Source: an uncultured Clostridia bacterium
GTDB taxonomy: Bacteria; Bacillota; Clostridia; Lachnospirales; CAG-274
Direction of reading: 5' to 3'
DNA length: 64,000 nucleotides
NCBI GenBank assembly: GCA_947630475.1
Contig: CANRHR010000006.1
Coordinates: 1-64,000 of the forward strand
The notes beneath the pieces were generated by a model. That model worked only from the letters and a program-made list of their open reading frames with translations. It was not told the origin of the DNA and did not search any database. Below are positions 10,081-58,680 of the stretch, in pieces. Position numbers and translations under genes: made by a program. Within the stretch, counting starts at the first letter, position 1; each line of letters begins with the position of its first letter.

Positions 10081-10153
10081 AAGTAACTATAAAGCGCCGC
10101 AGGCTTTTAACCCTCTGCTTCACCTCGAAAAAATCCGAATGAATTTTTTTGAA
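10081..10153 (+). repeat. Dispersed structured repeat, truncated copy A'
   Basis: It has the repeat's left end (AAGTAACTATAAAGCGCCGC then AGGCTTTTAACC), then skips the middle stems and ends in the right-end hairpin type CGAAAAAATCCGAATGAATTTTTTTG. It abuts full copy A directly, so this locus is a tandem pair. Confidence 0.65.
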
Positions 10154-10300
10154 AAAGTAACTAAGTGCCGCAGGCCTTTAACCCGCAGGCGAAAATCGCA
10201 TTTTCGCCGAGGAAAACAGCGAGTTTCAAGGCTCTTTAGAGCCGCCGGAATGAGCTGTTTATACATCTACCTCGCAAAAATCCGAATGGATTTTTGCGAA
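10154..10300 (+). repeat. Dispersed structured repeat, full copy A
   Basis: Four stems can be drawn. P1 is GGCGAAAA/TTTTCGCC (10188-10208). P2 is AAACAGC (10214-10220) with GCTGTTT (10254-10260). P3, nested in P2, is GGCTC/GAGCC (10230-10243). P4 is CGCAAAAATCC/GGATTTTTGCG (10273-10298). The same plan recurs in the copies near 21110, 46660, 49740 and 58560 with different stem sequences. Confidence 0.8.
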
Positions 10301-10302
10301 AA

Positions 10303-10335
10303 AAATAAAGGGAGGATTCCTCCCCCCTTTTTAAA
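10303..10335 (-). terminator. Terminator of the pectinesterase gene
   Basis: On the minus strand GGGAGGA/TCCTCCC forms a stem and is followed by TTTATTTTTTT. It lies immediately after the stop codon of the 10338-16523 gene. Confidence 0.7.
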
Positions 10336-10337
10336 GA

Positions 10338-13300
10338 TTATGCATTTTCTGAATTTTCTTCTGAGTTTTCGTCAGATTCTTCTGATTCTGCATTTTCTTC
10401 TACATTTTCAGCCTCTTCAGCTTCTGTATTTTCAGCTTCTTCAGCCGCTGAAACTTCCTCAGAAACCTTATCGGCTACAACGTCATAGAGCTTAGACATA
10501 AGAACTGCCATTTGCGCCCTTGTCATATCCGCTGTAGGTGAAACTGTTGATTCACTTGTGCCGTTTACAATGCCATTGCTTATAAGGAAAGCAACATAAG
10601 GCCTTGCATATGCGGCAATGCTTCCGGCGTCTGCGTAAGAGTTAAGTACAGATACATCAACATTGCTTGTGTCGTACCCAACAGCCTCAAGAGCCCTTGC
10701 TGCAAATACCATCATATCCTGACGAGATATTGAAGATTCAGAATTAAACATATTGTCGCCTGTTCCGCTTGCAAGACCGAGGTCTTTAGCAAGATTTATA
10801 GCGTTTGCATAGTATGAGCCTGCCGGAACATCGGCAAAGCTGGATTGTGGTGTTCCTGTTATGCCGAGTGTCTTTGTAAGCATAACCATAAAGTCGCCTC
10901 TCTTGCTTGTTGCATCGGGGGCAAACTGTCCGTTGCCAACGCCGTTTATTATGCCCATAGAAGCAAGCTTATTTATAGCACCCTGTGCCCAAGAGCGTGA
11001 TGACGTATCGTTAAATCTGCCGCTCTGTACAAGGCTTGAGCTGTTAAGCTTAGAGCCTGTTACAACGTTTCCGTCTGAGCCTCTGAGGGCAGGCGGATTA
11101 ATTGTAAAGCCTTTAGGCGTTACGAAAGATCCTGTGCTTGCAACAGTGCCGGAGCTTGATGAATTTGAGCCTGATGCGCCCGTATTTGAGCCGGCTGCAT
11201 TTGTATTTCCGGTGTTTGCACTTCCTGTATTTGTACTTCCTGTATTTGTATTTCCTGTGTTTGTATTTGAACCTGCTGAGCTTGAAGAGCTTGAAGAGCC
11301 TGAAGCCTTATGTGAAGAGCTTCCGCCGCCTCCTGAAGAATGGCTTCCTCCGTTTGAGCTGCTTGTTTGCTCTGAAGATTCTTCCGCTGAAGTCTGTTCA
11401 TCAGATGATGTTTGTTCCGATGACGGCTCTGTTGCAGATTCGTCTGTTGATGTTTGCTCTGATGACGGCTCTGTTGCAGATTCGTCTGTTGATGTTTGTT
11501 CTGATGACGGCTCTGTTGCAGGTCCGTCTGTTGTTGTCTGCTCTGATGACGGCTCTGTTGCAGGTTCGTCTGTTGTTGTCTGCTCTGATGACGGATTTGT
11601 TGCAGATTCATCTGTTGTTGTCTGTTCTGATGATGAAGATTCTCCGTCTGTTGAAATCTCTTCTGAAGAGCTTTCTGTTGATGACTCTTCATCAGATCCG
11701 ATTTTTTTCCACTGAGCAGTAATATTTGTATCCGCCGTTACATAAATTTTGTCTTCGGCATTCCTAAGCACTTCGCCTACAAGCCAGCCTTCAAATTCCA
11801 TACCTTCAGGCGCTGTAAATTCGCACTCGGGAAGATTATATTTGCCGTCAACAGTCGCATTTGGCATTTCGCCTGTTCCTTCTCCTGCATCAAAGCTTAT
11901 TTTAAAGCTTGGCGCTGATTCATCGAGGTAAACAGGCTTCCAATCGCCAAAGTAAAGTGCGGTTGTAATGTCTTCGCCGTTAATTTTAGGTTCTTTCAAA
12001 ACTGAAGTTTCCGTATAAACACGGCTTGCTGAGTTATCTATATAGTTGTTATCGGCGTCAAGTGTAAGCTCTCTTGTATCATATTCATAATACTTTTTGG
12101 TTTCCAGCTCTTTGCCCTGACCGCCCCAAGCCTGCCAGCCTGCCGGTGCTATAAGTGATTCGCCCGGATTGCAGCTTTCCTCTATTGTTGTGTAAAGATA
12201 AGTAACCTCTGCCGCCGTTGTAGACCAAGGTCTGCCAAAGTAGCAAGGCTTAGCTCTTTTTTCGGAAGCTGTGTTAATACCCGGTGTTGTACTTGTTACA
12301 GTACAATATCTCATGAGATAACCTCTTTGGTTATCGGGGTTTTGCGTAGCTGTGATGTAAGCCACATCGTCTTTGTGATCGCTTATGTTAAGCATAAGTC
12401 GGCATTTGTCGAATATAGCTATCATGCCGCCGAATATGTAATCTGTTCCGCCCTGAACGGTACAGTCAACATAGTAGCTCTTTATGCCTGTAGTGCCATA
12501 TAAAGTATCCTGACGGCCTATAAAGTTACAGTTTTTAAACTCTGAGTTGTCGCCCAAAACTGCCAAAGCCGCAGCTCTTTCAACAAATGGCTTGTTTTGA
12601 ACGGCTGTGCTGCCGTATTCGGTAGGTCTTTCACCTTTTCCGTCGCCTTTGTGTTCAACAACAACGTCTTCGGATTCTTTCTTAGATATATACTGATTGA
12701 AAGAATTTTCGAATATAATGCCGTCCGCCTTAAAGCCTGCGCCTTGAACAACAACGGTTGCATTCCAGTATGAGCCGTTTGTAGTGCCTGCGCCGGGGTT
12801 TGTAAAGTGAGTATCTTTGCCGGCTGCCGCATTTGTCTTGTTAACTTCAAGTGCTTCTGCGCTCCACTTATTGTCTGTGCCCATGCTGTAGTAGTCGTAG
12901 CCGTGACCATAGTAAGAAGTAATTCTTACAGCATTATCATCTATATCTACGCCTTTGTTCTTTGTTTCGATGCTTGGTGATGCGCTTGCGTTTTTAAGGG
13001 TAATATTGTTTCCCTTAATAACGAGCATTTCTTCGTAGTTGCCCGGATCGATGAGAACAGTAACGCCTTGTTCGTCTGTCCTTACCATTTTATCGATTGC
13101 TTCTATTGCGTCTTTAATTGTTGTGTAATCCTTGTCGGCGCCTACTGTTATTGTATCCTTATACTCGATGGTATCGGATGCTTTTGTAATTTTAATTCCC
13201 GTAAGATATCCTGTTACGTCGGATGTATTTGTAAGCGTTACATAGCCTTCTGGGATATCTTCAGCCTTAACAACAAAGCTATAATTTTCGCTCTTGCCTG

Positions 13301-16300
13301 TGCTGTTTAAAGATGAAGTACATTCAAACGCTTCTGCAGCCGCACCTATTGTGTAGCTTCCTGAATAATAGAAACTTATATCAATTTTGTCGCCCACTTC
13401 CGCAGGTATGCCTATGCTTGAATTTGCGCCCATTGTTGCGTGATTTTTGCCGCTTTGTGCGCCAAAGCTTCCGCTTAATACCTTAAGACCAAGGTAATAT
13501 TCGGGGAATTCAGTTCTGCCGCCTGTTTCAGCGTCTGTAAACAGCCATTCATATTTAGGATTAAACTCAACTGATATCTCTGCCGCCTCAGAATCAACCT
13601 TAAACATAGGCGTTGTTTTTTGCTGAAGCGGATATTTATCGAGATTATTTACAGCTATCTCGTATGTTCCGTTTCTGAGCTTAATTTCGTCACCGTCGTT
13701 AAATGTATAGGTATATTGAGTTTTTCCGTCCGTATGCATTTCAAGGGTATTTGTAAAGGTATAGCTTACGCCTGTTTTGTCCTCTACGCCTGTTAAATTA
13801 ACGGTTACGGGGTATTTTTCTTTTTCTTTAAAGCTAAATACATGATCCGTTTTATCCTCTGAATATTTAATTGTTGGGTTTGTAAGCTCATAGTCGTTAA
13901 TATTGTTTACAACTATATTGTATTCAACGTCTTTTTCGAGCTTAAGCTCAAATGTCATAGCGTCTGAATCGATTGTAAGCTCCGGAACATAAATTATGCC
14001 CTCTGCAGTAGGTTCAAACACTATCTCGGCTGAATCGAGAGTTTTTTTGTCAAGGCCGCTTATTGTACCGCTTACATTGGTAAGGCCAACGGATTCTATA
14101 GTTACATCAAGAGAATAGTCTTCTCCTGCGTTTTCACTGCTTATGTTAAGGTCGCTTTCAGAGCTTATAACATAGCCGTTAGCGCCGTCAAGAGCTAATT
14201 TATAATCATATTGCTCATAAATATAAGCTTCATATTTTCCGTCTGTAACCTTAACTTTTTGAACATCTCCGGTAATCTGGTTGGTAAATGTAATCTTATA
14301 GCCATCAGGAATTCCCGAAGCCTTTTCGACATTAACGCTTCCGCTTATTTTTACAACATTAGGATGTTCTCTGTAAAGCCTTGCAACACAAAGCTTTTCG
14401 TCGGGGTAATAAATCTTATAATCTCCGTCTTCCGGGGCGTTGAATACTATTTCATAAACATCGCCTGAACTTTTTACGGCAATATCAACAGATTTTATAA
14501 CCTCGCCAACTTGGTTGCCGTCTGTATCCATCTTAGCAAATTTTGCGGTTGCGGCTGTACCGTTTGAGGTAAGCCAAGCTGTGATAATATCATTTTTCTT
14601 AACATTTCTTAAGCCAACATAATCATCGGCAGTTTTTCCTTTGTTGGAATAAAGTATGCCGTGTGCGGCAACATCTGTACCGTCAGCCTTGTGAACTGTG
14701 TAAGATTTGCTGTCGTAAACCGCAAGAGCGGAATTATCTGATCTTAAGCGTGTAAATTGTCCGCCTGAAGTAGCCCAAACAAGATCTCCCTCTTCAATCT
14801 TTCCTAAAAGATTACTTGTACTTACGCCGGGCACAGCATCATCGTTTTCTGTACAATCAACCCATGCGCCATTTTCAAGGATTTTATCTTTTTTATAAAA
14901 TCCGTTTATTACTTCCGCATTAAGCTTATTTTCGTATTTTTCGGCATCAAGCTGCTCTGCGCCAAAATCCCATACATCAATTTTGCCGTTTCCTTGAGTT
15001 TCAGGGGGCGCTGTTGATTCATGCACTACATCAATGCCGTGCAGATAACAAGTTCCTCCGTTAGAATAAGTAAACTCGATTGTTGCAGGCTCGTCGCCTT
15101 CATATTTAAATGTAATTCCATCTTTACATGCTGTTGTCTTTGCATCGGCTGAAGCCGGAATTACATCAGGTGAGCTTGTTGAAAGCGTTGAGCCTTCCTT
15201 CTGACCGTTAGTATACTGACAGCCTTTAAAGGTTATAGTTGCATTTCTGCCTACCATAACGCTTAATTTAGTGCCGCTTCCAAATTGTATACCATGATTA
15301 TCGGCATGCTTTTTGGCGCTTGAAACGCTTACCCAGCCGTCTTTCCATACTCCCTTTGATTCCGCAGCTGTTGTAAGACCGCCTGCCTCTGCCTCTGTTT
15401 CAAAATCAATTGAATAATCTTCTTCGGGTATCGGAATGGGGTCGCCTTCGTTTTCAACAATAACACCCGGCATATAAGTTCTATATGCCGCAAAAGAAAG
15501 CTTAATAACATTTTGTTCGCCCGTATAATTTATTGTAACATTCTCAGATGAATCAGGGTTCTGCAAAAATTGTGTACAACTCTTTTCTTCGCTTTGCAAG
15601 CTTTGAGCATCTGAAGGCTCTATGCTTCCGCCATCAAAAAGCGCTGAAGCTGTAACGGCTGGTCCTTGTTTATTGTTAGTGTCTTTGGGAAGAGTTATTT
15701 TTGCATTTCCCGCTACGTTAATGAGCAAATAAACTGGCGTGCTAAAAGTTATGCCATAACGTGCATCAGAAGAATTTAAGCTAACATCTCCGTTAATTTT
15801 AATGTATTTTGAATCATCGCCTAAACCATGACCTTCATCTGCTACATATTTTGTAAAATCATACTTCTGTGTGGTTCCTTTTTCTGGATATTCATATTCA
15901 TCTTTAGGAAGAAGATTGTAAATATTAAAGCCGTGTATATATGCCTGACCTGTGCCTGAAACATTAAATACCAAAGTTGTCGCTTTGCCTGTGTATGTAA
16001 ATTCCATAGGAGCATTACAACCGTTTTTATCATTTCCAAAATTCATAGTCTTTGGCGATACGGTTTCACTTTCAGCGGTAATGCTGTAAGTATTATTTGC
16101 ATACTGACATTCATAAAACGTAATTTTGGCATCTCCTGCAACCTTAACGCTAATTTTAGTGCCGCTTTGCATTTGGGCACCGTGACCGCCACCATTCTTC
16201 GTTGCATTTTCCATTGTCACCATGCCGCCAAGCCAAGAACCGGAACCGCTTTCCGTGCTTAAGCCGCCGTCGTCACCATTTTTAATATCCACGTTGTAGG

Positions 16301-21028: not shown

Positions 21029-21108
21029 AAAAACACCCTCAATACAAACTTTTTTTATGTTATTCTCAGCCTTTTATAAGGAACAAAAGGCTCAAACTGT
21101 CAATAATT

Positions 21109-21260
21109 TTAACGAAGTAACTTAAAGCGTCGCAGACTTTTAATCCGCAGCAGGAATATTTCCTGCGAAGAAAAAGGTAGTTTCAAGGGTAATCCCGATG
21201 GAACGAACCTTTTATACCTCTGTTTATTTTCGAAAAAGTCCACTGACTTTTTCGAAGCTC
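21109..21260 (+). repeat. Dispersed structured repeat, copy B
   Basis: P1 is GCAGGAA/TTCCTGC (21150-21166), P2 is AAAAGGT (21172-21178) with ACCTTTT (21207-21213), P3 is a short GGG/CCC hairpin, and P4 is CGAAAAAGTC/GACTTTTTCG (21231-21254). P1 and P2 differ from copy A at both strands of each stem, so pairing is kept. Confidence 0.75.
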
Positions 21261-21261
21261 A

Positions 21262-21327
21262 AAGCCTTTTATAAGGAACAAAAGGCTCGTTTCACAGCCA
21301 CAAAAAGCCTTGAAACTCGCCTTTTCA
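21262..21327 (-). repeat. Dispersed structured repeat, inverted partial copy B2
   Basis: Read on the minus strand it gives AAAAGGCGAGTTTCAAGGC, an altered P3, and GAAACGAGCCTTTTG, i.e. the P2/P3 core of the repeat. It points toward copy B. The first and last stems are missing. Confidence 0.6.
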
Positions 21328-21350
21328 TTTGATAAATATAATTTTATTGA

Positions 21351-21887
21351 TTAAACAAGCTCGATTATAACCTCTTCAGCGCCGTCACCATGTCTTGCGC
21401 CTAATTTTATTATACGAGTATAACCGCCCTTGCGGTCTGTATATTTTGGCGCAATTTCATCAAACATTTTGGCAGCCATATCCACCTTTTTTGTGTTTGC
21501 TCTCTTTTTTCTGCCATCGGCAGGAGTTTCCACAACAGGATAAAGGACGCTTAACATTTTTCTTCTTGCATTTAAACGAGCAGGATTATCCTTTTTAATC
21601 GTTTTGTCAACCTCATCATAAACGGTAACTCTCTTGCCATTAACGTTTTCTTTAATTCTCTTGCCTTTATCATCTTTTTTGGCAACCTTAGCCTTAACAG
21701 TAACTTCAACAAAGTTATCTTTTTCCTTTACAGCAAGAGTAATTAACTTTTCGGCAATTTTTCTGATTTCCTTAGCCTTAGCTTCGGTAGTTTTAATTCT
21801 GCCGTGATATAATAAATTGGTCACCTGATTGCGAAGCAGCGCCTTACGCTGGCTTGAAGTGCGACCAAGCTTTCTGTATTTGGCCAT
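21351..21887 (-). CDS. rplQ: 50S ribosomal protein L17
   Basis: L17 binds 23S rRNA near the tunnel exit. The 178-residue protein starts [20 protein letters not shown] and ends in [19 protein letters not shown], both typical. It is about 60 residues longer than the 110-120 residue form because of a lysine-rich insertion after residue 60 ([20 protein letters not shown]...). Such insertions are known in Lachnospiraceae-type Clostridia. It is the last gene of the ribosomal cluster, 18 bp after rpoA. Confidence 0.96.
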
Positions 21888-36380: not shown

Positions 36381-36611
36381 AAAAAAAGTCCCCTCCTTTT
36401 CGCACTTTTTTAGACTTCAGTACGACAGCGGTGACTGCACATCGCATATATCGGCCGAAAAAACGCATAACGGCAGATATATAAATATAGTACAGTGACT
36501 TGTCGCCCGGTTTCTTGAACTGGACATCGCTCTGCAGGAAAAACCCGATTTACGGCAACCTCCCGCTTCATCGCTCTTATGCCACAACATTTACATTGCA
36601 TCACATATCAA

Positions 36612-45739: not shown

Positions 45740-46576
45740 ATGAAAAAAAAGGTAAATCTGACCGATTATTGGATACTGTGGTCACTGGCTATAATTGCAG
45801 TATTTTGGCTGATTTTGGTGCATCAGATGAGATTCAGTCATTTGATAATGCTGCCTGTTATAATAATATATTTGATAATAAACGCACTAATATTTAACTC
45901 TTATTTTTTAGGCCTTGCCGGCACTTATTTTCTTTACAGGGGCAAAACAGATAAGGCATTTCATCTTTATGAAAAAGCAATCAAGAAAAATACCAGAAAT
46001 GTAAGCGCGCTGTATCACTGGGCTGTAAGGCTGCTTCAAAGTGGAAAAGGAGAAGAGGCTCTTGTCTTTCTCGAAAAAGCAAAAAGAATAAACACAAGAG
46101 TTATTATGAATAAAAACATAATGCTTGCAATGGGAAGCTGTTATTGGACAATGGGAAATATCGATAAAGCCATTGAAACAATAGAAGATCTTATGGAAAA
46201 ATACACATACGTAAATGCTTCTGTTTTAACAACAATAGGTTATCTTTATTTTCTTAAAAAGGATTACGAGCTTGCCGAGAAATACAGCCAAATGGCTATA
46301 AAAGACAACCCTGAGCACAGTGCCGCATGGGATAATATGGGGCAAATATATTATGCAAAAAATGAACTGGAAGAAGCAAAATCAGCTTTTAATACTGCCC
46401 TTAATTACAACAGCAGGATGCCAGACAGCCTTTTTTATATGGGCAAGATAGCGCTGGCAGAAAATAATAAAAATCTTGCTAAACAATATTTCACAAAAGC
46501 GTCAGAATGTGATATTTCAGCCCTAAACACAGTAACCCATGAACAGGTTGAACAGGAACTTAAAAATTTATCTTAA
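45740..46576 (+). CDS. Membrane-anchored TPR protein
   Basis: The 278-residue protein has two N-terminal membrane helices (about 10-30 and 35-60) followed by five or so tetratricopeptide repeats (ALYHWAVRLLQSGKGEEALVF; AMGSCYWTMGNIDKAIETI; TTIGYLYFLKKDYELAEKY; AWDNMGQIYYAKNELEEAK; SLFYMGKIALAENNKNLAK). The repeats should face the cytoplasm or outside as a protein-binding platform. ATG 45740 has GCGAGGG 6 bases upstream and starts MKKKVNLTDYW; the earlier ATG at 45707 has no site. Function is unknown. Confidence 0.8.
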   Translation: MKKKVNLTDYWILWSLAIIAVFWLILVHQMRFSHLIMLPVIIIYLIINALIFNSYFLGLAGTYFLYRGKTDKAFHLYEKAIKKNTRNVSALYHWAVRLLQSGKGEEALVFLEKAKRINTRVIMNKNIMLAMGSCYWTMGNIDKAIETIEDLMEKYTYVNASVLTTIGYLYFLKKDYELAEKYSQMAIKDNPEHSAAWDNMGQIYYAKNELEEAKSAFNTALNYNSRMPDSLFYMGKIALAENNKNLAKQYFTKASECDISALNTVTHEQVEQELKNLS

Positions 46577-46590
46577 AATATGATAAAAAA

Positions 46591-46615
46591 GGCTCTTGAT
46601 AAGGTATCAAAAGCC
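46591..46615 (-). terminator. Possible terminator after tyrS
   Basis: On the minus strand GGCTTTTGATA pairs with TATCAAGAGCC (one mismatch) and is followed by TTTTTTATC. It lies about 175 bp beyond the tyrS stop codon, on the far side of repeat copy C. Confidence 0.5.
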
Positions 46616-46659
46616 TCAGACTGTCAATAAACCTAAATTTTGTTGAGTTTATAAGTTTT

Positions 46660-46770
46660 TAAGAGCGTCGCAGACATCAAATCCGCAGGCGGAAATCGCA
46701 TTTTCGCCGAGGAAAAAGGCGAGTTTCAAGGCTTTTAAAGCCGCTGGAATGAGCCTTTTTTTTAATCAAA
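46660..46770 (+). repeat. Dispersed structured repeat, copy C
   Basis: P1 is GGCGGAAA/TTTTCGCC with a G-U pair, P2 is AAAAGGC (46714-46720) with GCCTTTT (46753-46759), and P3 is GGCTTTTAAAGCC (46730-46742). The right-end hairpin P4 is missing. P2 and P3 differ from copies A and D on both strands but still pair. Confidence 0.75.
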
Positions 46771-46791
46771 CTCCGGCTTTTTTAAACCAAA

Positions 46792-48024
46792 TTATACGAG
46801 CTTTATTCTATGAAAACTCTTTTTTCCCTTTTGTATAAGAGCCGTACTATCCTGATTAAAATCCGATGGAGCAAGTATATGCTCTATGCTTTCTATTTTT
46901 GCATCATTCACTTTAACGCCGCCCTGAAATATCATACGTCTTGCATCACTCTTTGATTGACAAAGCTTTGTTAAAACCAAAAGATCGATAACAGTCATTC
47001 CATTGCCATATTGCTGAGCGCTTATTTCAGTTGTCGGAACAGAGCCCTCTGCTCCAGAGCCTCCAAAAAGAGAGCGGGCGGCATTTTGAGCCTTTTTAGC
47101 CTCTTCTCTTCCATGCACAATCTGAGTAATCTCAAAAGCAAGCACCTCTTTAGCCTTGTTTATTTCACTGTCTTTAAGCGCCGAAAGCTCATTAACCTCC
47201 TCCATAGGCAAAAATGTTAAAAGCCCCAAGCATTTTCCTACATCAGAATCATCTATATTTCTCCAGTACTGATAAAATTCATAAGGAGATGTTTTATTCG
47301 GATCAAGCCAAACTGCCCCTTTTTGGGTTTTACCCATTTTTTTGCCATCTGAGGTTGTAAGCAAACGGAACGTTACGCCATAAACGTTTTCATTTTCCAT
47401 TCTTCTTACAAGGTCGACTCCGCCCAATATATTTGACCATTGGTCATTTCCGCCCATCTGAAGCTTACAGTTATATCGTCGATTAAGCTCAAGAAAGTCA
47501 TAGCTTTGCATCAGCATATAATTAAACTCAAAAAACGAAAGCCCTCTTTCCATTCGTGTTTTAAAACACTCCGCAGTAAGCATTCTGTTTACTGAAAAAT
47601 GTACTCCTATTTCTCTTATAAAATCAATATAATTAAGGTTTCTGAGCCAATCTGCATTATTTACAATAATAGCTTTTCCATCGCTAAAATCTATAAACCT
47701 TGAAAACTGCTTTTTAAAACATTCAACATTATGCTCTATCGTATCATCATCCATCATTTTTCTCATATCGGTTCTGTCTGTAGGATCTCCTACCATACCT
47801 GTGCCGCCGCCCATAAGCGCTATAGGCCTGTGCCCAGCTTTCTGCATATGGCTCATTGCCATTACTGTAAGAAAATGACCTACCGTAAGGCTATCCGCTG
47901 TTGGATCAAAGCCGATATAAAAGCTTATCTTTTCTTTGCCTAAAAGCTCTCTTATTTCTTTTTCATGTGTTGTCTGCTCTATAAATCCTCTTTGTTCAAG
48001 AATATCAAATACATTTTCTGACAT
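46792..48024 (-). CDS. tyrS: Tyrosyl-tRNA synthetase
   Basis: TyrRS charges tRNA-Tyr. AGGAGG lies 8 bases before ATG 48024, giving 410 residues starting [19 protein letters not shown]; the frame up to 48117 has no site. Class I motifs are [16 protein letters not shown] (HIGH equivalent, GHF) and KKMGKTQKG (KMSKS equivalent, KMGKT), with a C-terminal S4 domain ([15 protein letters not shown]). No T-box leader is found upstream, unlike many Firmicutes tyrS genes. Confidence 0.97.
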
Positions 48025-48099
48025 TATTAATCCTCCTATCGGCTCAATTTTTTGACAGCCGCTTTTAAAGATGATAATTTGTTTGAATAAATAAATATA

Positions 48100-48128
48100 A
48101 TTATACACGTTATGCAAAAATTATTCAA
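48100..48128 (-). promoter_or_regulatory. Sigma-A promoter of tyrS
   Basis: On the minus strand TTGAAT and TATAAT are spaced by 17 bases, about 76 bases before tyrS. The transcript leader is too short for a T-box. Confidence 0.75.
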
Positions 48129-48170
48129 TAAATTTTGAAAAAAAGGCGAGGACTTACTTGCCGAATCAAT

Positions 48171-48240
48171 GATATTCATACTTCGCTGAGCTAAATTACT
48201 CATAACCGACGGCTTCTGACGAAGTCGGTTGTCGGTTAAA
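48171..48240 (+). repeat. Second dispersed repeat, copy 3, with hairpin
   Basis: GATATTCATACTTCGCTGAG matches the left part of the repeat, followed by CTCATAACC and a hairpin with ACCGACGGC...GTCGGT arms. The middle differs from other copies. Confidence 0.45.
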
Positions 48241-48258
48241 ATATTATTATTTTACCGT

Positions 48259-48285
48259 TAAGATTAGATGGGTTTTTGCCGAAAT
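48259..48285 (+). promoter_or_regulatory. Sigma-28 (SigD/FliA) promoter of flagellin
   Basis: TAAG, 15 bases, then GCCGAAAT closely match the flagellar consensus TAAA-N15-GCCGATAA. It lies about 65 bases before the flagellin start. Confidence 0.75.
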
Positions 48286-48349
48286 ATATTTAGGATAAAA
48301 ATTAACAGGACGTTAAAAATATTATAAAATTTTGGAAAAAGGTGATAGT

Positions 48350-49174
48350 ATGATTATTAACCATAACGTTGCTGCTCTTGTTACAAACAATTCATTGGCT
48401 AAAGCCGGCACAAGAGCTGATAAAGCATCTAAAAGGCTTTCAACCGGTCTTAAAATAAACTCAGCGGCAGATAATGCGGCAGGCCTTGCCATAGCCAACA
48501 AAATGAAAGCTCAGGTAAGCGGCTTGGAACTTGCCAACAGAAATTGTAACGATGCGGTATCTCTTATTCAAACGGCTGAAGGCGGTCTTGCCGAAATTAC
48601 AAATATGCTCCAAAGAGTAAGAGAGCTTGCAGTGCAAGGCGCAACCGATGCGGTAACCGACAGTGACAGGGAAAAAATCCAAACAGAGGTTAATCAGCTT
48701 GTTGATGAAATAGAAGAAACATCAAAAAAAATACAGTTTAACAACAAAACTCTTTTTGATGCGGATGCCGAAGAATTTGTTTTCCAAATAGGCGCAAATA
48801 TGGAAAATAAAGTTGGATTTCAAATGGAAAGCATTACTTCCGAAACTCTTAATGTTAAAATATTTAAAGATGACGAGATGTATAAAAGTATAACAGGCTG
48901 TGAAGATGCCATTGATATTTGCGATGATGCACTCAGCATTGTTTCATCTTTTAGGGCTAAGCTTGGTTCCTTCCAAAACAGATTGGACTATACTTCAGCT
49001 TCCCTTGATACATCAACCATAAATGCCCAATCTTCATTATCACGCATAGAAGATACCGATATGGCGGCTGAAATGACAGAATACACGACCTATAACGTTA
49101 TTACCCAAGCGGCGATATCTGTTCTTGCGCAGGCTAACCAAAGGCCTAATCAGCTTCTTTCACTGTTACAATAA
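48350..49174 (+). CDS. Flagellin
   Basis: The 274-residue protein starts MIINHNVAALVTNNSLAKA at ATG 48350 with AAAAAGGTGA 6 bases upstream; the frame's earlier start at 48332 has no site. The D0/D1 N-terminal helices (RLSTGLKINSAADNAAGLAI; IQTAEGGLAEITNMLQR) and C-terminal D0 (YNVITQAAISVLAQANQRP; ending LLSLLQ) are intact. The central variable region is very short, so the filament should be thin and lack surface D2/D3 domains. A sigma-28 promoter precedes it and a FliS-like gene follows by 25 bp. Confidence 0.97.
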   Translation: MIINHNVAALVTNNSLAKAGTRADKASKRLSTGLKINSAADNAAGLAIANKMKAQVSGLELANRNCNDAVSLIQTAEGGLAEITNMLQRVRELAVQGATDAVTDSDREKIQTEVNQLVDEIEETSKKIQFNNKTLFDADAEEFVFQIGANMENKVGFQMESITSETLNVKIFKDDEMYKSITGCEDAIDICDDALSIVSSFRAKLGSFQNRLDYTSASLDTSTINAQSSLSRIEDTDMAAEMTEYTTYNVITQAAISVLAQANQRPNQLLSLLQ

Positions 49175-49199
49175 TTTTTAAGAATTGAGGGCTGAAAAA

Positions 49200-49670
49200 A
49201 TGAGAATATCTACAGAGGATTATGTTGCAAGGATTGCCAACGCTACTCAATTACAGCTTGTCATAATTAATTATGAAATTATTATAGATTACCTTAATGC
49301 GGCAAAAGGAAGCGTAAATAAAAAAAAGGATTTTGATTTTAATCTTGAAAAAGCAAGACAGTTTTTAAACGAACTTAGGGTTTCTTTAGATATGCAGTAT
49401 ACATTGTCAAAATACCTCATGCGGCTTTATCTCTATGTTGATCAGCAAATAGCATACTGTCAGTTTAACAGCCGCACAGAACACATTGACGAATCTATTA
49501 AAATTTTAAACTCTTTACTTGAGGGCTGGAAAAAAATTGAAACAAACGAAAAAGACAAAACTCCTGTTATGGAAAATGCCCAACAGCTTTATGCAGGCTT
49601 AACCTACGGAAAAAACGGAAGCCTTAACGAATATGTTGATATGAAAACAAACAGAGGCTTTAAGGTTTAA
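49200..49670 (+). CDS. Second FliS-like flagellin chaperone
   Basis: The 156-residue helical protein starts at ATG 49200 with GAGGG 8 bases upstream. The stretch ATQLQLVIINYEIIIDYLNAA resembles the FliS motif (Q-L-x-x-M-L-Y-D-G-A-I), and YMRLYLYVDQQI-like residues follow (LMRLYLYVDQQIAYC). It is only distantly similar to the FliS encoded at 16941, but its place 25 bp after flagellin strongly suggests a dedicated flagellin chaperone. The C-terminal 40 residues are extra and end in NEYVDMKTNRGFKV. Confidence 0.65.
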   Translation: MRISTEDYVARIANATQLQLVIINYEIIIDYLNAAKGSVNKKKDFDFNLEKARQFLNELRVSLDMQYTLSKYLMRLYLYVDQQIAYCQFNSRTEHIDESIKILNSLLEGWKKIETNEKDKTPVMENAQQLYAGLTYGKNGSLNEYVDMKTNRGFKV

Positions 49671-49685
49671 TAATTTTGATAAAAC

Positions 49686-49717
49686 AAAAGGCTTCGCATT
49701 ATAATGCGAAGCCTTTT
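49686..49717. terminator. 32-bp perfect palindrome after the FliS-like gene, likely terminator
   Basis: AAAAGGCTTCGCATTA is followed directly by its exact complement TAATGCGAAGCCTTTT, and then GTTTGT. It lies 16 bp beyond the stop codon at 49670 and probably ends the flagellin transcript. Its 24-bp core is repeated at 49903-49926. Confidence 0.7.
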
Positions 49718-49734
49718 GTTTGTAAATAAAATCT

Positions 49735-49898
49735 TATTTTAACAAAATAACTTAAAGCGCCACGGACTTTTAATCCGCAGGCGAAATTTATTTCCGCCGA
49801 GGAAAACAGCGAGTTTCAAGGGATTTTTAATCCCGATGGAATGAGCTGTTTATACATCTGTTCTCTTCGAAAAAGTCCACTTGAAATTTTTCGAAGTT
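49735..49898 (+). repeat. Dispersed structured repeat, copy D
   Basis: P1 is GGCGAAA...TTTCCGCC with a bulge, P2 is AAACAGC (49804-49810) with GCTGTTT (49845-49851), P3 is GGGATT/AATCCC (49820-49834), and P4 is CTTCGAAAAA/TTTTTCGAAG (49865-49896). P3 replaces the GGCTC/GAGCC stem of copy A by a fully different but still paired stem. Confidence 0.8.
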
Positions 49899-49899
49899 A

Positions 49900-49929
49900 A
49901 ATGGCTTCGCATTATAATGCGAAGCCATT
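49900..49929. repeat. Second palindrome with same core as 49686-49717
   Basis: AATGGCTTCGCATTA/TAATGCGAAGCCATT is a perfect 30-bp palindrome. Its inner 24 bases are identical to those on the other side of repeat copy D, while the outermost bases differ. Confidence 0.75.
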
Positions 49930-49953
49930 TTTAAAATAAAGGAGTTTTGGAAT

Positions 49954-50007
49954 ATGATGGGCGGGGAAACCCATCATAATGTGAGAGGAGTATCTATATC
50001 AATATAA
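49954..50007 (+). CDS. Micro-ORF of 17 codons (uncertain)
   Basis: ATG at 49954 is preceded by AAAGGAG at 8-9 bases and reads MMGGETHHNVRGVSISI before TAA. The first half of the frame is also an ATGATGGG/CCCATCAT hairpin. It could be a real short peptide, a leader, or the start of a decayed gene. It is convergent with the htrA-like gene. Confidence 0.3.
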   Translation: MMGGETHHNVRGVSISI

Positions 50008-50022
50008 AACTTGTACGCTTAA

Positions 50023-51282
50023 TTAAAAATTAGAGTTTGGCTCGGCAAGCAACTTAACTTTTATCGTTTTCATACTTCTGCCGTTTCTTATTACTTTAAC
50101 GGAAATTTCATCACCTATCTTATAGCTGCTTATGGCATCGGTCAGTTGTTCTTTTGTAAAAATCGGCTTATCATCTATTCCCGTTATTATGTCGGTTTCC
50201 TTAAGCTCCGAAGCTGCAGCGCTTGAGCGTGGCACAATCTGGGTTATCATAACGCCTGTTTGGGGAAGATTGTACGCAGTGGCAAAATCCTCTGATATAT
50301 CCGAAATATAAACCCCCAAAAACGGAGCGCTTTGATTATTCATAATTTTTTCTATAATCGGCTTGGCTGAATTGGCAGTTATGCTGTAGCCGACACCTTC
50401 AACAGAATTCATTGAAAGCTTAGCAGTATTTATGCCCACAACCTCACCCTTTGAGTTTATTAATGCTCCGCCGCTGTTTCCGGGATTTATTGCTGCGTCT
50501 GTCTGAATAACGGTAAGCTGTCTTCCGCTTACGTTTATCTCTTTATTAACCCTGCTTACAACGCCTGAAGTAGCAATATTTCCCTCTCCTAAGGCATTTC
50601 CTATGGCTATAACTGATGAACCCTCGATAAGATTGTCGGAATCTCCAAAACTTATCGCTTTTATATCTTTTATTCCTTTTGCTTTTAAATCTTCAATGCT
50701 TACGGAAATAACAGCCAAATCACTTGCTGTGTTTTTCCCCACAAGCTTTGCAGGTATAAAGACATCGGAATCAAATGATATATTTACTTTTTTTGCGCCG
50801 TCAATAACATGATTATTTGTGACTATATAAACATTCTCGTCATTTTTGCTAAAAATTATGCCTGAACCGGAGCTGTCAGATTCATAAAACATATCAAAAA
50901 AAGTTTCCGTCTGAGTTGTAGACGTTATGCAGACAACAGCAGGCTTTACCTTTTTGATTATATCAACATTAACCGCCGAAGCATATCCCAGCGAAGAATC
51001 TTTTGTTTTTGAGTTTTTAAAATCTTTTGATTTAACATCATCAGCGTTGTCATTAAAGCTTAATCCAGCCTTATCGATATTTTTTAAATTTTTTAAACCG
51101 GACTGAATAAAAACGATACCGCTGCCAATCAAAAAACCCAAGAGTGTACAGCCTATAAAGGCTGCAAATATTTTCCAAATTTTTTTTGTGCGTTTTTTAG
51201 GGGCAGCACCCCCGTTATTTTCGGAATAAGGCTGTTCTGAATCATTTTGGTAATAATCAGTATTTTTTTCAAATTCGCCCAC
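50023..51282 (-). CDS. HtrA/DegP-like membrane serine protease (first copy)
   Basis: HtrA proteases degrade misfolded proteins outside the membrane. The 419-residue protein has a polar cytoplasmic N-terminus, one membrane helix (KIFAAFIGCTLLGFLIGSGI, about 37-56), a trypsin-like domain with His in NNHVIDGA (about 155), Asp in SDLAVISV (about 190) and Ser in NPGNSGGALI (about 268), and one C-terminal PDZ domain (FLGVYISDISEDFATAYNLP...). It lies 219 bp after a paralog in the same direction. Confidence 0.93.
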   Translation of the reverse strand: MGEFEKNTDYYQNDSEQPYSENNGGAAPKKRTKKIWKIFAAFIGCTLLGFLIGSGIVFIQSGLKNLKNIDKAGLSFNDNADDVKSKDFKNSKTKDSSLGYASAVNVDIIKKVKPAVVCITSTTQTETFFDMFYESDSSGSGIIFSKNDENVYIVTNNHVIDGAKKVNISFDSDVFIPAKLVGKNTASDLAVISVSIEDLKAKGIKDIKAISFGDSDNLIEGSSVIAIGNALGEGNIATSGVVSRVNKEINVSGRQLTVIQTDAAINPGNSGGALINSKGEVVGINTAKLSMNSVEGVGYSITANSAKPIIEKIMNNQSAPFLGVYISDISEDFATAYNLPQTGVMITQIVPRSSAAASELKETDIITGIDDKPIFTKEQLTDAISSYKIGDEISVKVIRNGRSMKTIKVKLLAEPNSNF

Positions 51283-52983: not shown

Positions 52984-53346
52984 AAGTATTCCTCCTATGA
53001 TAATTATAATAATTTTTATATGTTAAGGCAGAAGCTTATAAATAAGCTATAATTAAAGCGTAAACTTTTATGCCTTAATTTTTATTATTTATTTTTTACA
53101 GTATTAAGTATACTCAATTAATTTGAACAAAATATTAAGAAAATGTAAATATATAAAAATTATTTGTAAAAAATTTTTATTATTGATTATAAGGTTTTAT
53201 ACGCCCAAACGAGCTGTTTATACATACGGCTTTTTTAACCAATATTGTTATGCTTAACAAAAGATATAAATTATGTTATTATTATGTTATATTTCTCCGA
53301 TTTTTTCAATATTATTTATAACATCATAAAAAACGGAGGAAAATAA
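52984..53346. other. AT-rich divergent region before htrA and the amidase
   Basis: No gene is seen in these 363 bp. At about 53206-53237 AAACGAGCTGTTTATACATACGG-like sequence is a right-half fragment of the dispersed structured repeat (its P2 3' arm and following bases). No clear promoter could be assigned. Confidence 0.5.
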
Positions 53347-53877: not shown

Positions 53878-53909
53878 AAAAACATAAATAATAACAAAGG
53901 AGAATTAAT

Positions 53910-54272
53910 ATGAAAGTATTATTTTTGGAATATCCAAAATGCAGCACATGCAAAAAAGCTAAATTATGGCTTACCGAAAACGGGGTTGACTTTTGCGACA
54001 GGCATATAGTCGAGAATAATCCCACTTCGGATGAGCTTAAAGGCTGGATAGAAAAAAGCTCTCAGCCTATCAAAAAATTTTTTAACACAAGCGGTATCAT
54101 GTATAAGGAATTGGAGCTTAAAAGCAAGCTTGAAAATATGAGTGATGATGAAAAAATTCAGCTTCTTTCAACAAACGGCATGCTTGTTAAGCGCCCTCTT
54201 ATTATAGGCGAAGATTTTGTTTTGATAGGCTTTAAGTCGGAAGAATGGAAAAACCGCCTTTTACAGCCGTAA
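53910..54272 (+). CDS. ArsC/Spx-family thioredoxin-fold protein
   Basis: The 120-residue protein starts MKVLFLEYPKCSTCKKAKLW with a redox-type C-x2-C (Cys11, Cys14) and has the ArsC/Spx C-terminal feature LVKRPLIIGEDFVLIGF. Spx controls transcription by binding RNA polymerase, while ArsC relatives reduce arsenate with glutaredoxin. The short YffB/YusI-like form seen here is usually an uncharacterised reductase. It lies 32 bp after the amidase gene with AAGGAG upstream, so the two may be co-transcribed. Confidence 0.8.
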   Translation: MKVLFLEYPKCSTCKKAKLWLTENGVDFCDRHIVENNPTSDELKGWIEKSSQPIKKFFNTSGIMYKELELKSKLENMSDDEKIQLLSTNGMLVKRPLIIGEDFVLIGFKSEEWKNRLLQP

Positions 54273-54353
54273 GCCCGGGCTTTAAAATATATTCATCTTT
54301 TGCAAAAACCGATATTATAGGCGATTTTATCACATAAAGCCTATAATATCTTT

Positions 54354-55421: not shown

Positions 55422-55589
55422 CGCCTTTTCTCCTTTGCTTTACACTTAAAGCGGAAGCAGCCGCCGCCTAAGAGTAAGGATTTACTCGGGTTAAAAAACT
55501 CATTTTGCATTAATTCAGCCGCTTAGCGTACATAAATTATCTTTGGCAGTTTCTGTAACATAAGTATTGCTTGAGAATAATATAACATT

Positions 55590-55626
55590 ATACCGACAAA
55601 AAAACAATATCTTAAGTCGGTTTTTA
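55590..55626 (+). other. ACCGAC/GTCGGT stem-loop upstream of cotJA
   Basis: ACCGAC and GTCGGT arms are separated by about 18 bases and followed by TTTTTATTATA. It resembles an intrinsic terminator reading toward cotJA, with only about 25 bp left before the coat gene's start. It could be an attenuator or a leftover hairpin. Confidence 0.4.
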
Positions 55627-55650
55627 TTATAAGCTTGCGGAGGTGAAATT

Positions 55651-55857
55651 ATGTATAGCGCCAAAAATTGTCCATCTAATTGTATACCCTATCAAACGCC
55701 TATAGAGCCGTCATCATTGTCAAGAGCTTATGTTCCTTTCCAGATTTACTGCTCAATATACGGTGAAAAGCAAAGCCTTTTAAGCGGAACTGTTTTCCCG
55801 GGGCTGTATAAGCCTTATGTTAAAAAAAATGAAAACTGTGGTAACTGTGGCAAATAA
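55651..55857 (+). CDS. cotJA: Spore coat-associated protein CotJA
   Basis: The 68-residue protein contains SLSRAYVPFQIYCSIYGEKQ and GTVFPGLYKPY, the CotJA signature (L-A-R-A-Y-V-P-x-Q and G-T-x-F-P-E-L). CotJA is a minor spore coat component. It opens the cotJA-cotJB-cotJC operon; GGAGGTG precedes the ATG. The C-terminus is cysteine-rich (NCGNCGK), as in CotJC here. Confidence 0.93.
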   Translation: MYSAKNCPSNCIPYQTPIEPSSLSRAYVPFQIYCSIYGEKQSLLSGTVFPGLYKPYVKKNENCGNCGK

Positions 55858-55891
55858 TTTCAAATCTATACAATAAAAGGAGGCTCAGAAA

Positions 55892-56173
55892 ATGAACAAT
55901 AAAAGAGACAGCATTTTAAATCGACTTACTATGCTTGATTTTATGGCTGTAGATCTTCATCTTTATCTGAACACACATCCTAATGACAAAGAAGTTATAG
56001 AAAAATACAACGAAATTATAAAAGAAGCCGAAGAGGTACGCTATGAATATGAAAAAAATTTTGCTCCGTTATGCTCATTCCGTTCAGCAAGCTCCGAACA
56101 CCATTTTAATTGGATAAACAACCCATGGCCTTGGAGCCGCAAATTTAATTATTATATTGAAGGGGAGGAATAA
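55892..56173 (+). CDS. cotJB: Spore coat protein CotJB
   Basis: The 93-residue protein reads LTMLDFMAVDLHLYLNTHP and ends with a WPWSR segment (INNPWPWSRKFN), both CotJB family features. CotJB is needed, with CotJA and CotJC, for the inner spore coat. It follows cotJA by 34 bp and has AGGAGG upstream; cotJC starts 3 bp after its stop codon. Confidence 0.95.
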   Translation: MNNKRDSILNRLTMLDFMAVDLHLYLNTHPNDKEVIEKYNEIIKEAEEVRYEYEKNFAPLCSFRSASSEHHFNWINNPWPWSRKFNYYIEGEE

Positions 56174-56176
56174 TAA

Positions 56177-56809
56177 ATGTGGGTTTACGAAAAAAAATTG
56201 GAGTTTCCCGTAAAAATCAAAAAAACCAATCCCGCTCTTGCTAAATGTATTCTCACTCAATACGGCGGCCCTGACGGCGAGCTTGCGGCATCTCTTCGCT
56301 ATTTAAGCCAAAGATTTACCACAGTCACGCCCGAAGCAAAGGCTACTTTAAACGATATAGGTACAGAAGAGCTGGCTCATCTTGAGATGATAGGCTCCAT
56401 TGTTATGCAGCTTTCAGAAGATGCCGATATGCAAGAAATCAAAAATCAAGGCTTTGACTCATATTATGTTGACCATGGCTTGGGAATATATCCCGCTTCC
56501 GCGTCCGGCGTACCGTTTACGGCGGCATATCTTCAATCAAAAGGCGACCCAATTACAGATCTTTATGAAGATATGGCGGCGGAGCAAAAGGCTCGTTCAA
56601 CCTACGAATATCTACTCAATCTTACAGATGATCCTGATGTTGCAGAGCCTTTAAAATTTTTAAGAGAAAGAGAGATTGTTCATTTCCAACGCTTTGGAGA
56701 AGCTTTGAGAACAGTACAGGATTATCTTGATTCGGAAAGATGCTTTGTTATTCCTAAGCCTAATTTTATGAATAATGATAAAAACTGCGGCTGCAAAAAA
56801 TGCAAATAA
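56177..56809 (+). CDS. cotJC: Spore coat protein CotJC, manganese catalase type
   Basis: The 210-residue protein starts MWVYEKKLEFPVKI and has the manganese-catalase ferritin-like helices with metal ligands in GGPDGELAASLRYL, GTEELAHLEMI and MAAEQKARSTYEYLL, plus REREIVHFQRFGEAL. It should break down hydrogen peroxide in the spore coat or assist coat assembly. The C-terminus is cysteine-rich (CGCKKCK), an unusual add-on that may aid cross-linking or metal binding. Confidence 0.95.
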   Translation: MWVYEKKLEFPVKIKKTNPALAKCILTQYGGPDGELAASLRYLSQRFTTVTPEAKATLNDIGTEELAHLEMIGSIVMQLSEDADMQEIKNQGFDSYYVDHGLGIYPASASGVPFTAAYLQSKGDPITDLYEDMAAEQKARSTYEYLLNLTDDPDVAEPLKFLREREIVHFQRFGEALRTVQDYLDSERCFVIPKPNFMNNDKNCGCKKCK

Positions 56810-56821
56810 GCTTGCAAAACC

Positions 56822-56851
56822 GTCGAAAAAGTCCGAAAGGACTTTTTCGAC
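56822..56851. terminator. Perfect 13-bp stem-loop after cotJC, isolated repeat hairpin
   Basis: GTCGAAAAAGTCC/GGACTTTTTCGAC with a GAAA loop lies just after cotJC. Its sequence is the same type as the right-end hairpin P4 of the dispersed repeat, standing alone here, and it may act as the operon's terminator. Confidence 0.6.
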
Positions 56852-56972
56852 ATCAAAAATATAAAATTTTCAAAAATTATTAATAAAATTTTTGATTTAT
56901 ATGATATAATATAATTAAATTGGGGAAAATCTTATTAACGCCTAATAAATTTATGAAAAACGGAGGAAAATT

Positions 56973-58427
56973 ATGAAAAAAATACTATTTGTTGCATCCG
57001 AATGTGTACCATTTATAAAAACAGGAGGACTTGCCGATGTAGTTGGAGCCCTTCCTAAGATGATGGATAAAAACCTCTATGATGTAAGAGTTATACTGCC
57101 CAATTATACCTGCATAAATAAAGAGCATAGAGATAAATTTAGATATATAACTCATTTTTATATGGATATGGGTTATAAGGCTGATCATGTCCATGTAGGA
57201 ATAATGGAATATGAGCTTGACGGCATTAAATACTATTTTATAGATAATGAATATTATTTTGGAGGAGGCTACCCTTACAGCACATTTCGTTTTGATATAG
57301 AAAAATTCTGTTTCTTTTCAAAGGCTGCTCTGGCTATTCTTCCGGTTATAGATTTTAAGCCTGATATAATACATTGTCATGACTGGCAGGCAGGCCTTAT
57401 TCCTGTTTTTGTAAAGACAAAATTTAACTGTATGTCATTTTTCAGAGATATAAAAACAATCATGACCATACATAACTTAAAATTTCAGGGAGTTTGGGAT
57501 ATAGACACTATAAAATTTTACACCGCTCTCGATGACTATCTTTTTACTAATGATAAGCTTGAATATTATTCCGATGCAAATATGCTTAAAGGCGGCTTGG
57601 TATATGCCGATTATATTACAACGGTAAGCGAAACTTATGCCGATGAGATAAAAATGCAGTATTACGGAGAGGGGCTTGACGGCTTGCTTAGGGCAAAAAG
57701 TCAATTTGTATCCGGAATTTTAAACGGAATCGACTATACAATATACGATCCTAAAACAGATAAAAATATAACTAAAAATTATTCTTCCGATAATTTTGTC
57801 GAGGCAAAAGCCGCAAACAAGCTTGCCCTTCAAAAGGAGCTGGGTCTTGCTGAGGAAAAAGACATATTTATGATCACAATCATATCAAGATTAACCGACC
57901 AAAAAGGCCTTGATTTGGTAGATTGGGTTATAAAAAGACTTTGCACCGAAAATGTACAATTCGTCGTTTTGGGAACAGGTGAAAGCAATTATGAAAATCT
58001 GTTTAAGCATTTTGCATGGCTTTATCCAAAAAGAGTTTCTGCAAATATAGGATTTTCCGATAAATTGGCGCACAAGCTCTATGCTTCATCCGATGCTGTT
58101 TTGATGCCGTCAAAATTTGAGCCATGCGGATTAACTCAGCTTATAGCGCTTAGATACGGTTCCGTTCCTATTGTAAGAGAAACAGGCGGGCTTAAAGATA
58201 CCGTTGAAGCATATAATGAATATGAAAAAACCGGAACCGGCTTCTCATTCCAAAATTATAATGCTGATGAAATGCTTAACACAGTCAATTATGCAAAAAG
58301 CGTATATTATAACGACAGAAAAGCTTGGAACGACATTGTAAAGCGTGGAATGAATATGGATTTTTCATGGAAAAGTTCTTCCGAAAAATACAGCAGGCTT
58401 TATGAAAAGCTTACCGAAAATATTTAA
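56973..58427 (+). CDS. glgA: Glycogen synthase (ADP-glucose type, GT5)
   Basis: GlgA transfers glucose from ADP-glucose to alpha-1,4-glucan. The 484-residue protein has the N-terminal substrate loop KTGGLADVVGALPK, the HCHDWQAGLIPV region, and the C-terminal motif KFEPCGLTQLIALRYGSVPI followed by RETGGLKDTV. It stands alone here; glgB, glgC and glgD are not adjacent. Glycogen is often made before sporulation, which fits the neighbouring coat operon. AACGGAGG precedes the ATG. Confidence 0.97.
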   Translation: MKKILFVASECVPFIKTGGLADVVGALPKMMDKNLYDVRVILPNYTCINKEHRDKFRYITHFYMDMGYKADHVHVGIMEYELDGIKYYFIDNEYYFGGGYPYSTFRFDIEKFCFFSKAALAILPVIDFKPDIIHCHDWQAGLIPVFVKTKFNCMSFFRDIKTIMTIHNLKFQGVWDIDTIKFYTALDDYLFTNDKLEYYSDANMLKGGLVYADYITTVSETYADEIKMQYYGEGLDGLLRAKSQFVSGILNGIDYTIYDPKTDKNITKNYSSDNFVEAKAANKLALQKELGLAEEKDIFMITIISRLTDQKGLDLVDWVIKRLCTENVQFVVLGTGESNYENLFKHFAWLYPKRVSANIGFSDKLAHKLYASSDAVLMPSKFEPCGLTQLIALRYGSVPIVRETGGLKDTVEAYNEYEKTGTGFSFQNYNADEMLNTVNYAKSVYYNDRKAWNDIVKRGMNMDFSWKSSSEKYSRLYEKLTENI

Positions 58428-58458
58428 CAAAAACAAATAAAATATCGGATACTGTATA

Positions 58459-58492
58459 TGATATTCGTACTTCGCTTACGCTATGTACTATA
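58459..58492 (+). repeat. Second dispersed repeat, copy 4
   Basis: GATATTCGTACTTCGCTTACGCTATGTACTA-like sequence gives one of the clearest copies. It directly precedes the inverted part of structured repeat copy E. Confidence 0.6.
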
Positions 58493-58557
58493 ATCAGATG
58501 TATAAAAATCTCATTCCATCGGGATTAAAAATCTCTCGAAACTTGCTGTTTTCTTCA
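58486..58557 (-). repeat. Dispersed structured repeat, inverted partial copy E'
   Basis: Read on the minus strand it gives AAAACAGCAAGTTTC, GAGATTTTTAATCCCGATGGAATGAGA and TATACATCTG, matching the middle of copy D. It abuts the forward copy E head to head. Confidence 0.7.
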
Positions 58558-58680
58558 GCGGAAATAGCATTTTCGCCGAGGAAAAAGGCGAGTTTCAAGG
58601 CTTTTAAAGCCGCCGGAACGAGCCTTTTGTTCATCTGTTTAACTTCGAAAAAGCTGCTGCAATCTGCAGCAGCTTTAATT
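58558..58680 (+). repeat. Dispersed structured repeat, forward copy E
   Basis: P2 is AAAAGGC (58583-58589) with GCCTTTT (58622-58628), P3 is GGCTTTTAAAGCC (58599-58611), and the right-end hairpin is replaced by AAGCTGCTGCA/TGCAGCAGCTT (58651-58675). The left part of P1 is lost in the junction with E'. Confidence 0.75.
58651..58675 (-). terminator. Terminator of the SASP gene
   Basis: AAGCTGCTGCA/TGCAGCAGCTT is a perfect 11-bp stem with a 3-base loop, and TTTTTCG follows on the minus strand. It lies 22 bp beyond the SASP stop codon and is at the same time the last hairpin of repeat copy E. Confidence 0.75.

Follow-up and report, generated by a model that had tools for sequence, protein, structure and literature searches.

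Miniature inverted-repeat transposable element (MITE)-like repeats with IS1182-type ends, whole-hairpin target duplications and a conserved RNA-like core in an uncultured Clostridia bacterium

The stretch analyzed in this study, referred to as the window, comprises positions 1-64,000 (64,000 nt) of contig CANRHR010000006.1 (C6) from an uncultured Clostridia bacterium of the CAG-274 lineage (GCA_947630475.1, here G000), a 2.18-Mb draft genome of 48 contigs with 99.62% completeness. It contains copies and remnants of a dispersed intergenic repeat, for which a preliminary description had claimed five near-full copies (A to E) sharing a plan of covarying stems (P1 to P4). The repeat was searched for with a covariance model (R1) built from 27 copies of G000, with copies A, B, and D among the training rows. 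The features of the repeat in the window are the following, with R1 scores in bits:

10054-10154, plus strand: decayed copy just upstream of copy A (58.9 bits)
10129-10301, plus strand: copy A, with a decayed left end and without a recognized target duplication (154.8 bits; flank repeat score 8, not above controls)
21068-21093: left target duplication of copy B, palindrome AGCCTTTTATAAGGAACAAAAGGCTC
21095-21257, plus strand: copy B (150.8 bits)
21228-21372, minus strand: remnant overlapping P4 of copy B and the stretch GCCTTGAAACTCGCC (56.4 bits)
21263-21288: right target duplication of copy B, with the same sequence as on the left
46587-46616: palindrome at the left end of copy C, the sole remaining one, the right end of C being lost
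46617-46768, plus strand: copy C, left end CAGACTGTCAATAAACC, without P4 (134.5 bits for 46619-46768)
49686-49717: left target duplication of copy D, palindrome AAAAGGCTTCGCATTATAATGCGAAGCCTTTT
49718-49896, plus strand: copy D, the whole element (168.9 bits)
49780-49798, plus strand: hairpin P1 of copy D (sequence; alignment helix 3)
49804-49851, plus strand: stem P2 of copy D, 49804-49810 with 49845-49851 (sequence; alignment helices 4-6; fold)
49813-49817 with 49838-49842, plus strand: P2b of copy D, inside P2 (sequence; alignment helices 4-6; fold)
49820-49834, plus strand: P3 of copy D, inside P2 (sequence; alignment helices 4-6; fold)
49867-49894, plus strand: right-end hairpin P4 of copy D (sequence; alignment helix 7)
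49899-49930: right target duplication of copy D, differing from the left one by a compensated pair change
53206-53226, plus strand: remnant of the 3' arm of P2 (CGAGCTGTTTATACAT), recognized by eye, no R1 match at E ≤ 0.01
56822-56852, plus strand: lone P4-like hairpin (R1 match 56746-56852, 32.6 bits)
58462-58635, minus strand: inverted partial copy overlapping copy E (43.5 bits)
58496-58688, plus strand: copy E, with the inverted partial copy in place of its left part (93.6 bits)

All five near-full copies lie where the preliminary description had placed them and carry the stems that it named, with R1 scores of 93.6-168.9 bits. Copy C, however, lacks P4. The fragments reported near 10081 and 53206 correspond to the decayed copy and to the P2 remnant, respectively, and those farther right to the lone hairpin and the inverted partial copy; the supposed fragment near 21262 is first the right target duplication of copy B and only then the minus-strand remnant. 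The element ends, the target duplications, P2b, a small hairpin, and an outer TCC/GGA helix had not been reported. Target duplications are present on both sides of copies B and D, and copy C retains the left palindrome only. No open reading frame (ORF) of at least 80 aa lies inside copies B, C, and D, and two ORFs overlapping A and E extend beyond the element. A terminator scan of 46400-50100 called 46589-46617 terminator-like on the minus strand and did not call the palindromes of copy D.

A covariance-model search, as proposed in the preliminary description, revealed that the repeat is widespread and that its core is common to many gut Clostridia. In G000, R1 matched 141 places at E ≤ 0.01, of which 77 scored above 90 bits; among the weak matches, many represent antisense hits to the P4 hairpin. 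Matches were found in 30 of 61 relatives, namely 29 of the 37 genomes of the same family and one of the 24 outside it. In an order-wide sample, 70 of 295 genomes matched, including 33 of the 48 of its own family (f1), 33 genomes of family f17, three of f16, and one of f5. The core pattern was also present in named records, among them Anaerotignum sp. MSJ-24, Lachnospiraceae B68, and metagenome-assembled genomes of uncultured Clostridia. In other genomes, the ends of the element follow the pattern CAGNNTGTCRAWAAA and the module ATCCGCAG-P1-GAGGA is retained, and the P2/P3 part occurs as several sequence types.

The element is about 180-245 nt long and has inverted ends with TGTCRAWAAA, in which TGTC sits 5 nt inside the element border. 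Comparison of 30 loci indicated that intact G000 copies typically start with CAGACTGTCAATAAACC and finish (read inverted) with TTGASTGTCGAAAAAGTCC, with the same palindrome outside both ends. Flank duplications, palindrome lengths, and gene ends in G000 were analyzed for 91 of the 141 matches, comprising the top 87 by score and four weaker ones; the other 50, weak matches that include two in the window, were omitted. A flank score of at least 15 was reached by 33 of these 91 copies, compared with two of 455 mismatched pairs. By a stricter test, duplications of 17-35 nt hug both ends in 34 copies, in which duplication length tracks palindrome length (r = 0.69) and the borders of duplication and palindrome coincide, with median offsets of 0 and 1 nt. 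The duplicated palindromes exceed the 95th percentile of shuffles in 28 of the 34 cases, which indicates insertion at inverted repeats. At loci L004/L008, three copies of one terminator-like palindrome lie before, between, and after two tandem elements; that the palindromes are terminators was mostly judged by eye. With the longest open frames standing in for genes, 41 of 82 copies are located between converging frames and nine between diverging ones, compared with five convergent and seven divergent among the 31 larger gaps of the window.

An ordinary family of structured RNA genes, or a terminator cassette, multiplied by recombination would agree with the structure and the intergenic location. 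This explanation is contradicted by the duplication, site by site, of unrelated palindromes around the same element ends, and we consider it extremely improbable.

The duplicated palindromes of a pair sometimes differ by changes that preserve pairing, such as AAAAGGC/GCCTTTT and AAATGGC/GCCATTT. Such paired changes were observed between 49686-49717 and 49899-49930 of the window and between the flanks of the copy at 79901-80077 of contig C8, and they hint at selection on both hairpins after insertion. Several derivatives of the element were also noted in G000. Two left ends stand back to back at L146:2301-2331 (contig C3, about 67,800-67,830), with few bases between them and no core, and both ends remain recognizable around a mostly deleted core at L153 and L154 (C8, about 20,100, and C12, about 55,270).

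Similar duplications occur in other genomes, where 70 copies were tested; L116, whose right flank is too short, the same-place repeats L133 and L033, and also L174-L180 were omitted. A flank score of at least 15 was found in 29 of the 70 copies, compared with none of 350 controls. In the single-contig genome G268, perfect duplications of 24-30 nt flank six of nine copies, and identity between copies reaches 96-97%, which suggests recent movement. The element also occurs in the sense direction 4 nt before the 23S rRNA at three rRNA loci of G089 (L249, L250, and L251; L249:801-994). Being in the same orientation, it would be transcribed there, and these are the only known copies so placed. Recent transposition was considered for the three identical copies and rejected, as they represent copies of one element in rRNA loci.

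Inside these ends lies a folded core. Of 100 loci supplied, 105 matches and 103 distinct rows were obtained for its alignment. Across these rows 97.0% of cells pair, compared with 87.7% for shuffled and 38.9-64.4% for slid structures, and both sides change in 26 of 39 structural pairs, as claimed for the stems of the window copies. Covariation was tested using our own R-scape-like script with 40 simulations on the tree, and the alignment had been fitted to the structure under test; structural pairs were judged over 39 tests and the remaining pairs over 15,361. Under this tree-aware null, significant covariation (E < 0.05) was found in 12 of the 39 structural pairs, including four of seven in P1, two of seven in P2, five of 12 in P4, and one of three in P0. 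Only two of the 15,361 non-structural pairs were significant, both inside P2. A lack of significant covariation, which the preliminary description had named as refuting its claim, was therefore not observed. The motif GAGTTTCAAG, described earlier as single-stranded, is not all so: its GTTTC part pairs with GGAAY of the joiner to form P2b, in which 99.4% of cells are paired. Because P2b hardly varies, it contributes little evidence of covariation. Further helices include a small hairpin, GYC-GCA-GRC, and the outer TCC/GGA helix around P1. Rfam 15 returned no gathering-score match on the window copies, group I introns included, and nothing overlapping the element at nine further loci at E ≤ 2.

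No transposase gene was found within the element, and its ends and target are shared with an insertion sequence of the IS1182 family in relatives. At locus L207 of G005, which belongs to another genus, a 475-aa transposase (Pfam DDE_Tnp_1_6 and DUF772) scores 416.9 bits against an IS1182 cut-off of 270. It is bounded by CAGTCTGTCAATAAACC and, inverted, CAGTCTGTCAAAAAAGTCC, and TGTCAATAAACC and TGTCRAAAAAGTCC are common to the ends of this insertion sequence and the left and right element ends in G000. Hairpins resembling P4 were recognized by eye inside the insertion sequence ends. The insertion sequence is located in a terminator-like palindrome that is duplicated at both sides, with a third copy beyond an adjoining core-bearing element. 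At nine of 12 loci with an L207-type transposase, an end abuts a palindrome scoring at least 7 at 0 nt, a count made without a shuffled control. Transposases of this type were identified in nine of the 48 family genomes, with several copies broken, and the IS1182-family model matched 30 of the 61 relatives at E ≤ 1e-3, five of them above the cut-off.

We therefore consider it probable that the repeats are non-autonomous mobile elements that reside in palindromes close to gene ends, the palindrome being duplicated in full, that they are likely mobilized in trans by transposases of the IS1182 family, and that they bear a core predicted to be a plus-strand RNA. The element is short and without a transposase gene, has ends in common with an autonomous element, and shows a like target duplication; we thus describe it as MITE-like: its ends are of the IS1182 type, the target hairpin is duplicated as a whole, and its RNA-like core is conserved. 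Its mobility and its target are close to certain, given the ends, the dispersed copies, and the target duplications in several genera. The partnership with IS1182 is likely, as a transposase encoded elsewhere is supported by the insertion sequence of relatives that has these ends and this target. The preliminary description had proposed either a non-autonomous element with such a transposase or a structured RNA family; the former is likely and the latter is supported together with it, since covariation beyond the tree-aware null and the strand bias of folding and wobble pairs in four type I copies point to a structured core.

Several observations weigh against parts of this explanation. At a flank score of at least 15, 58 of the 91 G000 copies have no duplication, many of them being truncated or old. 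The draft assembly of G000 contains no IS1182-family match at E ≤ 1e-3 and no L207-type match at E ≤ 1e-20 or 1e-5, and G268, a single contig with recent-looking copies, contains no L207-type match at E ≤ 1e-5. Of the 37 family genomes, 29 have the element, and 15 of these have an IS1182 match, as do five of the eight that lack the element; the two are not associated. No larger element was recognized in 20 stretches with unpaired ends located by exact end pattern (eight from G268, covering all its unpaired ends outside known elements, and 12 from G013, covering part of its ends); most are small elements with a diverged other end. With the L207 protein, tblastn gave only chance-level matches in these stretches (best E 0.77), for which ORFs were read in L271 and L281 only. 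Two AT-rich elements of G268 (L272:121-277 and L274:114-320) have similar inverted ends and a common internal sequence and lack the core, which suggests that the core may be dispensable for movement. When all column pairs are counted as tests, only two structural pairs remain significant, both in P2. The excess of G-T (261) over A-C (57) wobble cells comes mostly from P2b, without which the counts are 92 and 55. Finally, the type II copy stretch folds equally on both strands (z -6.36 on the plus strand and -6.69 on the minus strand).

The missing and unassociated IS1182 matches would also be expected if the element is mobile as described and the copies of G000 and G268 are moved by a transposase of another family with shared or convergent ends and target. 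Against this, the only transposon found with both the ends and the whole-palindrome duplication belongs to the IS1182 family (families beyond IS1182, IS1202, and IS1634 were not searched), and we judge another mover unlikely. The partner transposase presumed for G000 may be lost, unassembled, or different. Regarding an autonomous copy in G000, seven left ends without an R1 match were inspected; the ORFs of two (L145 and L146) include none that is transposase-like, and the other five were viewed around the end only.

Transposases of two other types do not fit as partners. An IS1202-type transposase was considered because of the TGT..ACA ends and long duplications, and was rejected for the element's own family: the model NF033594 exceeded its cut-off in one of the 61 genomes and in none of the 37 of that family, G000 itself giving two partial matches, both weak (best E 5.4e-5), and an IS1202-type copy, L162 of G059, has no clear target duplication. 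IS1634-type transposases are absent from G000, and the one copy with a long direct repeat, L195 of G009, in which a 96-nt repeat (L195:1194 and 3286) bounds an IS1634-type element, has other ends. These two results likewise speak against a mover from another family. Another subgroup of IS1182 present in the family has ends unlike those of the element (L211, CGAGACCAGTGAAAAAGTCCC).

The core might instead be kept as DNA, its hairpins acting on single-stranded or extruded DNA during transposition. The element itself targets hairpins, P4 shows no strand bias (20 G-T, 17 A-C), and, as mentioned above, type II cores fold as well on one strand as on the other. The wobble pairs of P1 (42 G-T, 14 A-C) and P2b, however, favor the plus strand, which also folds better in all four type I copies (z -4.15, -3.76, -3.38, and -5.29, compared with -2.36, -1.99, -1.62, and -1.78 on the minus strand), and unpaired core columns are conserved (mean 0.85, compared with 0.76 and 0.73 in linkers). 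We regard a role as DNA as rather unlikely; on sequence grounds, the core is predicted to be an RNA of the plus strand. Group IIC introns undergo reverse transcription at terminators, and a comparable spread via an RNA intermediate would suit an RNA-like core inserted at terminator-like palindromes. Such a route is very improbable, as the inverted terminal repeats match those of a DDE insertion sequence and palindrome-sized duplications lie on both sides, although no search aimed at reverse transcriptases was made.

A model for the insertion is suggested by IS1272 of the IS1182 family, which targets inverted repeats and replaces the stem-loop, leaving no duplication; the same source draws a possible pathway that duplicates the entire stem-loop through joining at its 5' feet (PMC5678879). 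For the non-autonomous element proposed here, the palindrome would extrude as a hairpin or cruciform, and the transposase would join the two 3' ends of the element to the 5' feet of the hairpin on opposite strands. Gap repair would then copy the hairpin, leaving one on both sides of the element, so that duplication length would follow palindrome length. If the target is a terminator, each of the two neighboring genes would retain a terminator, and P4 may add another; insertion there is therefore predicted to be nearly harmless. The core may be kept since it helps movement or makes insertion tolerable. A more specific role, in which the element RNA assists the IS1182-type DDE transposase, e.g., by keeping hold of the enzyme or by offering a hairpin that helps it find or open palindromic targets, is quite unlikely in our estimate. 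If true, a DDE transposon would have a structured RNA cofactor, and its insertion would take place at the feet of extruded hairpins, so that whole terminators are duplicated.

REPs are not known to duplicate a palindrome. Like the element, REP/RAYT systems comprise abundant intergenic palindromic repeats depending on a transposase encoded elsewhere; REPs themselves depend on tyrosine (Y1) transposases (PMC2817692). Similar to IS1182 and IS1272, the element uses inverted-repeat targets, and the IS1182-family element at L207 shows both whole stem-loop duplication and the element's ends, whereas IS1272 lacks the duplication and the element lacks a transposase gene and has a conserved folded core (PMC5678879). 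Bacterial MITEs are likewise short, non-coding, and dispersed, with inverted ends shared with insertion sequences and target duplication, but the element duplicates a whole palindrome of variable length and its core covaries across genera (PMC6382973, PMC10969869). The IS1202 family has a TGT..ACA end motif, and one subgroup duplicates 16-28 bp, with no known target; in the element, TGTC is set inside the border, the 17-35 nt duplications vary with the palindrome, and no genome among the 37 of the family has a transposase over the cut-off (PMC10132070). IStrons similarly join a DNA transposon to a structured RNA that may soften insertion, but carry a group I intron (PMC4227781), for which Rfam gave no gathering-score match in the window copies or in the element at the nine loci.

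The element would thus unite three features that are usually apart: a MITE, duplication of a whole terminator-like hairpin, and a covarying RNA-like core absent from Rfam. In an earlier model of IS1182-family transposition, whole-hairpin duplication was drawn only as a possibility (PMC5678879); here it is observed at many independent sites, several with perfect copies. Duplication of terminators would simply explain how dozens of copies are tolerated, and the occurrence of the core across several families of one order makes it a candidate RNA class. No description of the element or its core was found in the open-licence literature, as far as titles and the beginnings of abstracts disclose.

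Phage-borne spread was considered and is unsupported, as viral contigs gave one match for one core pattern and none for another. The sole viral contig with the exact core-module pattern is L194:785-805 (IMGVR_UViG_3300035512_000922). Apart from the repeat, an S10-Clostridia ribosomal protein leader (58 bits) was identified on the minus strand at 36500-36579 of the window.

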